Of a stretch of 64,000 bases of DNA, positions 24,655-28,156 are shown one piece after another. The stretch's first letter is position 1, and the number at the start of each line of letters is the position of its first letter. The stretch is from Polynucleobacter sp. Its GTDB lineage: Bacteria > Pseudomonadota > Gammaproteobacteria > Burkholderiales > Burkholderiaceae. The notes beneath the pieces are model-generated. The model was not told where the DNA came from. It saw only the letters and a program-made list of their open reading frames with translations, and searched no databases. Both the position numbers and the translations under genes were made by a program. The stretch spans positions 62,001 to 126,000 of the forward strand of contig JAHEBW010000001.1 in NCBI GenBank assembly GCA_024642065.1, given 5' to 3'.

Positions 24655-24900
24655 GGAGCCTCGAATGAATTCAATGTATATGAATCTCATTCTATATGGC
24701 ATCTCAGTTGAATGGCTCTTTTTTATAGCAATTAATCACTTAGCTATTTTTCATAAGAATCTCTTAACACTTGAGATCTAAGGGGCTCCTCCTATTGATC
24801 TAATTTTTAGATTAATAGTATCTATTTAATCAATTAGACAAATATAAGGGTAGACCCCAAAATTCGTCTGTTGTTTAACCATTTTGAAGAAGGAAATACC

Positions 24901-25464
24901 ATGTCAATCATCAACACAGCAGTGCAACCATTCGTAGCACAAGCCTACCATAACGGTAAATTTGTAACAGTTACAGAGCAAAACCTTCAAGGTAAATGGT
25001 CTGTATTTATCTTTATGCCAGCAGCCTTCACATTCAACTGCCCTACAGAAATTGAAGATGCAGCTGATAACTATGCTGAGTTCCAAAAAGCAGGTGCAGA
25101 GGTGTACATCATCACAACTGACACACACTTCTCACACAAAGTTTGGCATGAAACTTCACCAGCAGTGGGTAAAGCTAAGTTCCCATTAATCGGCGATCCA
25201 ACTCACGCTTTAACACGCGGCTTTGATGTGCATATTGATGCAGAAGGTTTGGCTCTTCGCGGCACATTCATCATCAACCCAGAAGGCGTTGTTAAGACTG
25301 CTGAAGTTCACAGTAATGAAATCGCTCGTGATATCTCAGAAACATTGCGCAAGTTGAAAGCTGCTCAATACACAGCTGCTAACCCAGGCCAAGTTTGCCC
25401 AGCAAAATGGAAAGAAGGCGCAGCAACATTGACACCAAGCCTTGATTTAGTTGGCAAGATCTAA
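24901..25464 (+). CDS. ahpC: Alkyl hydroperoxide reductase subunit C (peroxiredoxin)
   Basis: FIFMPAAFTFNCPTEIEDAADNYAEFQKAGAEVYIITTDTHFSHKVWHETS; resolving-Cys region GQVCPAKWKEG; followed by ahpF. Confidence 0.96.
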   Translation: MSIINTAVQPFVAQAYHNGKFVTVTEQNLQGKWSVFIFMPAAFTFNCPTEIEDAADNYAEFQKAGAEVYIITTDTHFSHKVWHETSPAVGKAKFPLIGDPTHALTRGFDVHIDAEGLALRGTFIINPEGVVKTAEVHSNEIARDISETLRKLKAAQYTAANPGQVCPAKWKEGAATLTPSLDLVGKI

Positions 25465-25479
25465 ATAGTAGATATATCC

Positions 25480-25533
25480 ATAGGCTCTCATTTGAGAGCC
25501 TATTGGAGAGAAACAATTTTCTCCAATAGGCTC
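25480..25533 (+). other. Overlapping mutually exclusive hairpins in the ahpC-ahpF intergenic region
   Basis: Hairpin A 25480-25503 (ATAGGCTCTC/GAGAGCCTAT); hairpin B 25496-25533 (GAGCCTATTGGAGA/TCTCCAATAGGCTC); 25496-25503 is shared. Confidence 0.75.
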
Positions 25534-25561
25534 ACACGAACCGAATACATAAGGAACGACC

Positions 25562-27139
25562 ATGTTAGATAACAATATCAAAACCCAATTAAAAGCTTAC
25601 TTTGAAAAAATTCAAGCTCCAGTTTCATTAACTGCTTCATTGGATCAAGGTGAAAAATCATCTGAAATGCTTACTTTGTTACAAGAGGTAGCAGAGCTTT
25701 CAGACAAAATTACTGTCAATACAGATGGTCAAGCTGTTAATCGCCCAAGCTTCACTGTTGGTGCAACAGGTACTCCAGCTCGTATTAGCTTTGCAGGTTT
25801 GCCAATGGGTCACGAAATGACGTCATTTGTATTAGCCATTTTGCAAAGCGGTGGCTACCCACCGAAGGTTGAACAAGCCATCATCGATACCATCAAGGAG
25901 TTACCTGGCAAGTTACATTTCCAGACTTTTATTTCTTTGTCATGCCACAACTGCCCTGATGTAGTTCAAGCCTTGAACTTGATGGCTGTGCTCAACCCTA
26001 ATATTGAACACGAAATGGTGGATGGCGCACTTTTCCAAGATTTGGTGAATCAACATCAGATCATGGCTGTTCCTACCGTGATCATGAATGGCGCAGTATT
26101 TGGTCAAGGTCGCATGACAGTTGAAGAGATTGTTGCTAAGTTAGACACCAACTCATCTGAAAAAGATGCAGAGAAGTTAAATGCTAAAGATGCATTTGAT
26201 GTCTTGGTCATTGGTGGTGGCCCAGCGGGTGCCTCTGCAGCGATCTACGCTGCCCGCAAAGGTATCGCTACAGGTATCGTTGCTGAGCGCTTTGGTGGTC
26301 AAGTGATGGACACCATGGGCATCGAGAACTTCATTTCTGTTAAAGAAACAGAAGGTCCTAAATTGGTCATGGCTCTTGAGCAACACGTGAAATCTTATGA
26401 AGTTGACGTGATGAATTTGCAACGCGCAAAATCTTTACGCAAAGATGGTCAAGGATTAGCCATTGAATTAGAGAATGGCGCAGTGCTTAAGAGCAAATCT
26501 GTGATTATCAGTACAGGCGCACGCTGGAGAGAAATGAATGTACCAGGCGAGCAAGAATATCGTGGCAAAGGCGTAGCTTACTGCCCTCACTGTGATGGCC
26601 CTTTATTTAAAGGCAAGCGTGTTGCCGTAATTGGTGGCGGCAACTCTGGTGTTGAAGCTGCGATTGATTTGGCAGGCATTGTTAGCCATGTCACTTTGAT
26701 TGAGTTTGATAGTCAATTACGTGCAGATGCTGTTTTGCAAGCCAAGATGAATAGCTTAGCTAATGTGACCGTGATTAAGAGCGCTTTGACCAAAGAAGTA
26801 TTGGGTGAGAATCAAAAAGTAACGGGGTTGCGTTATGAAGATCGCTCAACTGGTCAGATCAACACCTTAGAACTTGAGGGTATCTTTGTGCAAATTGGTT
26901 TATTGCCTAATACAGATTGGTTAAAAGGCACGATCGATCTTAGCCCTCGCGGTGAGATTATCGTGGATGCCAAAGGTGAAACTTCAATGCCTGGCGTTTT
27001 TGCTGCAGGAGACTGTACAACTGTCCCTTACAAGCAAATCATTATTGCCATGGGTGAAGGTGCTAAAGCCTCTTTAGGTGCTTTTGACTATTTGATTCGA
27101 TCATCTGTACCAGAAGCTGATGTGGCAATAGCTGCCTAA
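25562..27139 (+). CDS. ahpF: Alkyl hydroperoxide reductase subunit F
   Basis: [66 protein letters not shown]. Confidence 0.97.
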
Positions 27140-27154
27140 TCTAGCACTTAGTTT

Positions 27155-27194
27155 AAAAAGCTCCTAATACCTTTGAGGCATTAGGAGCTTTTTT
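27155..27194. terminator. Bidirectional terminator between ahpF and oxyR-like gene
   Basis: aaaaagctcctaat...attaggagctttttt stem-loop. Confidence 0.88.
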
Positions 27195-27208
27195 ATGAGC
27201 TGAGTTTT

Positions 27209-28156
27209 TTATTTTGTCTTAAAAGATTTTTTACGACTAACGGTACTTTTGTGAGATTGATGGTATTGCTCAGCAATGATGTTGGCAACTGCCATAAACT
27301 CATCAATCCGCGCAGTGGTTTGACGTGCTACTAATGCAATGCCACGTTTAGGTGCCGGAGCAGAAAGCGGCCTAGCCATGAGACTGGTGTTATTAAGAAT
27401 ACCGCCTTTGATCGCCATTTCTGGTAACAATGCAACACCCAAGCCAGCTTCTACCATTTGCACCAAAGTCAGTAAGCTAGTTGCTTCTATACCGTAAGGG
27501 CTGGCAGTTTCTTTTTGACGGCAAGCTCTTAAGCTATGTTCACGCAAACAGTGGCCCTCCTCTAACAACAATAGTCTGTCAGTCATCGATGCAGAAACTT
27601 TAACTTCTGGCGCTTTTAAAGCGGGCTCATCCGCATGAGCCGTTAACCAGAATTCGTCACCATACAGTTCTTTAACTAATAAACCCTCGGTGTCATAAGG
27701 CAAAGCAATTAAAGCAAAATCAAGCTGATGATCGACCACTCTTTTTAGTAGGTTGGCGGTCAAGTCTTCGCGCAGTGTTATTTTTAGATCTGGATAATTT
27801 TGTCGAATATTAGGCAAGACCTGCGGTAATACAAATGGTGCAATAGTCGGAATGACACCTAACTTAATCGTACCCGTCATCGAGTGGCCAGTGTTGTGGG
27901 TGTAGTCAACGAGGTCTTCTGCTCCAGCCAATAATTTAATCGCACGAGCTACCACCTCTTCACCAAGAGGAGTAACGGATACGTTTTGACGATCCCTCTC
28001 AATGAGATGAGCGCCCATGGTTTGCTCGAGCTCTTTCAATCCTGTACTCAGAGTGGATTGACTAACGAAACAGGATTCTGCAGCCTTAGTGAAGTTCAAG
28101 TATTGCGCAACAGCCACTAAATACTTCAGCTGTCTCAATGATGGCAACGCTGACAT
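27209..28156 (-). CDS. oxyR: LysR-family hydrogen peroxide-inducible activator (OxyR)
   Basis: LRQLKYLVAVAQYLNFTKAAESCFVSQSTLSTGLKELEQTMGAHLIERD HTH; LLLEEGHCLREHSLRAC with the OxyR-type Cys pair; convergent with ahpCF. Confidence 0.9.
   Translation of the reverse strand: MSALPSLRQLKYLVAVAQYLNFTKAAESCFVSQSTLSTGLKELEQTMGAHLIERDRQNVSVTPLGEEVVARAIKLLAGAEDLVDYTHNTGHSMTGTIKLGVIPTIAPFVLPQVLPNIRQNYPDLKITLREDLTANLLKRVVDHQLDFALIALPYDTEGLLVKELYGDEFWLTAHADEPALKAPEVKVSASMTDRLLLLEEGHCLREHSLRACRQKETASPYGIEATSLLTLVQMVEAGLGVALLPEMAIKGGILNNTSLMARPLSAPAPKRGIALVARQTTARIDEFMAVANIIAEQYHQSHKSTVSRKKSFKTK

Follow-up and report, generated by a model that had tools for sequence, protein, structure and literature searches.

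In Escherichia coli, RNase III cuts the messenger between ahpC and ahpF; the half-life of ahpC falls from about 14 min in the wild type to about 6 min in an rnc mutant, that of ahpF stays the same, and the authors suggest that a hairpin at the 3' end protects the ahpC message (PMC5371410). The element that we describe here in Polynucleobacter lies at the same position of the same operon and likewise makes the spacer strongly structured, but the E. coli spacer has 244 nt, separate hairpins and another sequence, and does not show the three-arm layout; the cut has been demonstrated in E. coli and is presumed in Polynucleobacter, and the analogy is one of position. In attenuators and antiterminators of the trp and his type, two hairpins compete for one arm and are near-balanced. 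Competition for one arm and near-balance are also features of the Polynucleobacter element, which, unlike these regulators, has neither a U-tract terminator nor a leader peptide and is located after a gene, not before an operon. Intercistronic hairpins are further known from the puf operon of Rhodobacter (Klug et al., 1987, cited in PMC11354728), a similar case in that RNA structure in a spacer leads to unequal protein amounts via segmental mRNA stability, and a dissimilar one in that the genes and bacteria are different and that overlapping arms are not described in the citing article's account of it.

According to the main text of its source, the PBC-28-3 motif is a structured RNA that precedes an AhpC-like gene and directly adjoins its start codon (PMC8632094). 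It resembles our element in being a structured RNA by an AhpC-related gene in a betaproteobacterium allied to Polynucleobacter (PMC8632094). Identity of the two is ruled out by that main-text description together with the presence of a fitting structure upstream of a different gene, which encodes a redoxin: in several Polynucleobacter genomes (loci L207-L213, L222 and L224), a long stem whose C-rich loop is strongly conserved lies upstream of the redoxin gene (MIAVGQKLPNATLYE), just before its start codon, and a variant stem is found in the genome studied here. This stem fits the description of PBC-28-3 published in that main text (PMC8632094).

The window (the whole stretch of DNA that was analysed, 64,000 nucleotides from Polynucleobacter sp.) carries ahpC and ahpF, whose products score 310 bits against TIGR03137 (cut-off 272) and 807 bits against TIGR03140 (cut-off 503), respectively, separated by a spacer of 97 nt. 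The locus comprises the following features, in window coordinates.

24901..25464, forward strand: ahpC, alkyl hydroperoxide reductase subunit C (TIGR03137 equivalog, above cut-off)
25480..25489, forward strand: arm 1 (AUAGGCUCUC), 5' arm of hairpin A (from the sequence)
25490..25493, forward strand: loop of hairpin A, AUUU in the window
25494..25503, forward strand: 3' arm of hairpin A (GAGAGCCUAU), serving as arm 2, with 25496-25503 common to hairpin B
25496..25512, forward strand: 5' strand of hairpin B (GAGCCUAUUGGAGAGAA), starting with the shared arm
25513..25516, forward strand: loop of hairpin B, ACAA (from the fold)
25517..25533, forward strand: 3' strand of hairpin B (UUUUCUCCAAUAGGCUC) (from the sequence and the fold)
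25526-25533, forward strand: arm 3 (AUAGGCUC), which repeats the initial 8 nt of arm 1 in direct orientation
25551..25555, forward strand: ribosome-binding site of ahpF, AAGGA, outside both hairpins (from the sequence)
25562..27139, forward strand: ahpF, alkyl hydroperoxide reductase subunit F (TIGR03140 equivalog, above cut-off)
27209-28156, reverse strand: OxyR-like LysR gene facing ahpC-ahpF

Hairpin A (ATAGGCTCTC-ATTT-GAGAGCCTAT, 25480-25503) is a perfect helix of 10 bp, and hairpin B (GAGCCTATTGGAGA...TCTCCAATAGGCTC, 25496-25533) one of 14 bp that reaches 17 bp through the pairs G25510-U25519, A25511-U25518 and A25512-U25517 (one G-U, two A-U), giving GAGCCTATTGGAGAGAA-ACAA-TTTTCTCCAATAGGCTC when written out in full. 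The stretch GAGCCTAT (25496-25503) is common to both hairpins; the middle arm (arm 2, GAGCCUAU) is complementary to arm 1 as well as to arm 3, which form a direct repeat of AUAGGCUC. In folds of the nascent chain, CC at 25478-25479 can lengthen the pairing of arm 1 past a bulge. The original prediction had given the coordinates of both hairpins, the perfect 14-bp stem of hairpin B and the shared stretch exactly, and the TIGR03137 and TIGR03140 scores confirm the two genes between which it had placed the hairpins.

Elsewhere at the locus, a conserved ATC..GAT..ATC pattern upstream of ahpC (24800-24880) resembles an OxyR-type operator, and in the stretch between ahpF and the convergent oxyR-like gene (27155-27195), AAAAAGCTCCTAAT...ATTAGGAGCTTTTTT looks like a bidirectional terminator. 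An OxyR operator within the palindromes themselves was considered and rejected: the OxyR period is ATAG-N7-CTAT, which the ATAG/CTAT spacings of 20 and 26 found here do not fit.

The region folds with a z-score of -4.66, none of 200 shuffles being equally stable, and no pair of overlapping helices of equal strength arose in 500 shuffles; the overlapping hairpins are real and exceed what chance produces. Since a single sequence could nevertheless be an accident, we collected relatives through AhpC and AhpF searches in the genus, named genome contigs and extracted spacers. In 129 Polynucleobacter loci, representing 104 distinct sequences, this site shows the order arm 1-arm 2-arm 3 again; the named isolates among these loci are Polynucleobacter species, and a few metagenome bins carry other labels. 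Across the genus the element occupies at most one place per genome (a second match in G209 is a self-overlap on the other strand), and no second copy was found elsewhere in the genome of the window, by which a REP or other dispersed palindromic repeat is rejected. Outside the genus, a pattern search of 25 genera sampled from the family did not recover it, and a covariance model run on 200 genomes of the order gave strong matches in three Polynucleobacter genomes only, the others being weak (E 7e-4 or worse). No Rfam family matched the element above its gathering score, the 64-kb window yielding only two tRNAs, and the matches that fall below threshold close to the site are implausible. We found no earlier description in the main texts of open-access articles, and the element is apparently undescribed before. 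The operon itself is patchily present: of 186 Polynucleobacter genomes, only about 100 showed full-length ahpF or the hairpin element, the remaining ones giving only distant thioredoxin-reductase-like matches.

The minimum-energy structure of the window sequence in context contains a 7-bp version of A next to a truncated B of 12 bp. The state containing A has an energy of -26.5 kcal/mol and full B one of -27.9 kcal/mol, a gap of 1.4; among the 104 relatives the gap favours B by a median of 1.8 kcal/mol, B being the more stable state in 81 and the two states lying within 3 kcal/mol of each other in 77. Folds of the growing chain pass from A alone to A with the upper part of B, and then to full B once arm 3 is complete. 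The hairpins compete for the shared arm and not as whole hairpins: the conflict over that arm, on which the original prediction had based its statement that only one hairpin can form, is borne out, but the exclusion of one whole hairpin by the other is not, as A coexists with upper B. The near-balance of the two states follows almost automatically from the likeness of arms 1 and 3, and is therefore no separate evidence for a sensor.

Overlapping hairpins in near-balance are what a transcription attenuator or antiterminator would display, in which one hairpin halts the polymerase and the other prevents the halt upon a cue, and this was the first function that the original prediction had suggested. 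Competing hairpins with a shared arm are indeed present, but the U-tract that intrinsic termination demands after a hairpin is not. The spacer between ahpC and ahpF holds no terminator-like site, and none of the 104 sequences has a U-tract: the 10 nt that follow A contain 1-3 T, and the 10 nt that follow B contain 0-4. The U-poor context of both hairpins speaks against that suggestion, and we regard attenuation as very unlikely. A switch of translation initiation was likewise rejected, as the ribosome site of ahpF (25551-25555) lies outside both helices; across relatives, about 22-58 nt separate the end of hairpin B from the start of ahpF.

Conservation was quantified on the ahpC tree. Arms 1 and 2 together accumulated 0.52 changes per site, and the figure for arm 3 is 2.0, compared with 29 in the upstream flank of the spacer, 16.4 at third codon positions of ahpC and 1.15 at its first and second positions, meaning that the arms, inside a randomised flank, are about as constrained as the neighbouring protein sequence. 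In the 104 sequences, 95.5% of cells are paired in helix A and 90.6% in helix B, while slid controls pair far less (25-65% for helix A, 28-48% for helix B); the corresponding values in a set of 28 sequences are 91.1% and 92.4%. Six pairs of helix B changed on both sides in this smaller set. Double-change cells in helix B number 25 as against 10 in shuffles, none of 500 shuffles reaching 25, although such cell counts are inflated by relatedness and the count of branches is the safer figure: the pair at columns 52-71 changed together on five branches of the tree (p = 4e-8). Co-change tests on the other pairs of helix B are individually weak because their columns hardly vary. Covariation in relatives had been named with the original prediction as a way of checking it; helix B does covary and conservation of the shared arm is extreme, and the lack of covariation it had listed as counter-evidence was not observed.

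Helix A has a single pair that changed on both sides, at the position common to all three arms. In the clade of the window, the three arms changed together at this position, from A, U, A to G, C, G, which on the tree corresponds either to one gain and a later reversal or to two gains; intermediate G-U states are seen in other species, in arm 1 (L015) or in arm 3 (L032 and L133). The covariation that helix A contributes beyond B amounts to this one three-way change in one clade. The loop of hairpin A is of the UNCG type in 79 of the 104 sequences (UUCG in 67, UCCG in 8, UGCG in 2 and UACG in 2) and GCAA in one further sequence, loops that are hard to explain except as those of a folded sense-strand RNA. 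In the same vein, departures within the arms of helix B are mostly G-U pairs on the sense strand, equivalent to A-C mismatches on the other strand.

A concerted change of arms is also the expected outcome if template switching during replication, and not selection for an RNA function, keeps the palindromes alike. However, such correction fails to explain the near-invariance of the arms across the genus next to a flank saturated with changes, and leaves the UNCG loop and the preference for G-U over A-C in the arms without explanation; we find it highly improbable. The near-invariance of arm 2 is greater than simple pairing requires, and could reflect its double pairing or a bound protein or RNA. 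On the latter reading, a protein or trans-acting RNA would bind the site, or a small RNA would be released from the 3' end of ahpC, with arm 2 as the recognised part and the hairpins controlling its exposure. That arms 1 and 2 change less than the first two positions of ahpC codons (0.52 vs 1.15), and are conserved beyond ordinary stems, would be expected of such a site, but the clade of the window altered all three arms, keeping the pairing and not the sequence, and the element has neither a second copy in the genome nor an Rfam match, which makes this reading quite unlikely in our judgement. What the alignments establish is a real cis-RNA element under strong selection for its structure, of a known general kind and with an unusual shared-arm layout.

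As to its function, the element is a stable and conserved RNA fold that separates two co-directional genes within a single operon, as is characteristic of intercistronic elements for mRNA processing or stability. The genome of the window encodes both RNase III and PNPase, and helix B, with 17 bp in the window and an interruption by two mismatches at mid-helix in most relatives (64-66 of 104), is a candidate RNase III substrate. Typical sites of this enzyme are longer than 17 bp, which, like the mismatches, counts against a cut in B.

In four genomes (G016, G085, G086 and G089; loci L225, L226, L227 and L228, respectively), frame changes or a deletion have disrupted ahpF and ahpC matches at full length; AhpF may be dispensable in these lineages. 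Three of them (G016, G085 and G086) retain the element, and this persistence despite a broken ahpF favours a role on the ahpC side; in G089 the stretch between arms 1 and 3 is gone, apparently through a direct-repeat deletion. Beyond the genus, 58 of 65 ahpC-ahpF spacers of other lineages have z-scores below -2, compared with 8 of the control stretches that were cut out of the end of ahpC. The feature that recurs across lineages is structure at the 3' end of ahpC. In three spacers from unrelated genera (L101, L099 and L084), the 3' arm of the hairpin following ahpC has a second possible partner downstream, and these are possible independent versions of the overlapping layout. We do not claim that this layout is general: overlapping helices exist in spacers of other lineages, but many of them, for example in Pseudomonas, derive from self-complementary terminator-like stems.

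The processing known from E. coli, together with the structured 3' ends of ahpC in other lineages, leads us to favour an element that parts ahpC from ahpF and protects it. We infer processing, protection and an effect on the protein ratio from these comparisons, and consider that there is about an even chance that the element acts in cis in intercistronic processing and 3' protection, in which case the ahpC part of the messenger would outlive the ahpF part and more AhpC than AhpF would be made. The suggestion in the original prediction of a stability switch setting the AhpC:AhpF ratio is in this respect plausible, and draws support from what was measured in E. coli at this position of the operon (PMC5371410); its further suggestion of a response to a cue finds no support in the present analyses.

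The overlap of the arms suggests how this could proceed. As computed, arms 1 and 2 would fold into hairpin A when the polymerase leaves ahpC, and arm 2 would then branch-migrate into the longer and slightly more stable hairpin B once arm 3 has been made. By analogy with E. coli, hairpin B would be cut, probably by RNase III, parting ahpC from ahpF; the freed arm 2 may then re-pair with arm 1, so that hairpin A, often with its very stable UNCG loop, would cap the 3' end of ahpC against 3'-5' exonucleases. Such a self-refolding relay, with B as the substrate for cutting, the cut passing the shared arm to arm 1 and A serving as the protective cap, is a tentative proposal that we hold to be rather unlikely. 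If true, the same arm would act first in processing and later as a shield of the 3' end, and its near-invariance would thereby be explained.

A weaker version of the protective function dispenses with the cut, the hairpins simply blocking decay from the 3' side. Taken further, the hairpins would be passive 3' stabilisers of the REP or puf-spacer kind, either of which blocks exonucleases without any specific cut, and their overlap would be incidental to a duplication of the arm. The position, the absence of a U-tract and the common occurrence of structured ahpC-ahpF spacers fit this explanation, as do the direct repeat formed by arms 1 and 3 and the apparent direct-repeat deletion in G089. An incidental overlap should drift, yet arms 1 and 2 are almost invariant, and the concerted change of all three arms in the clade of the window is at odds with it as well, so that we consider purely passive hairpins unlikely.

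Explanations of how one operon yields unequal amounts of its proteins usually proceed case by case. Throughout Polynucleobacter, a genus of abundant freshwater bacteria, a compact conserved structure stands at a point where E. coli processes the same messenger with an unrelated RNA. Should both serve the same function, structure between ahpC and ahpF has been reinvented in different lineages, and the need for an excess of AhpC becomes a testable rule; the overlapping arms would also represent a simple natural design that couples a cut to the protection of the cut product.
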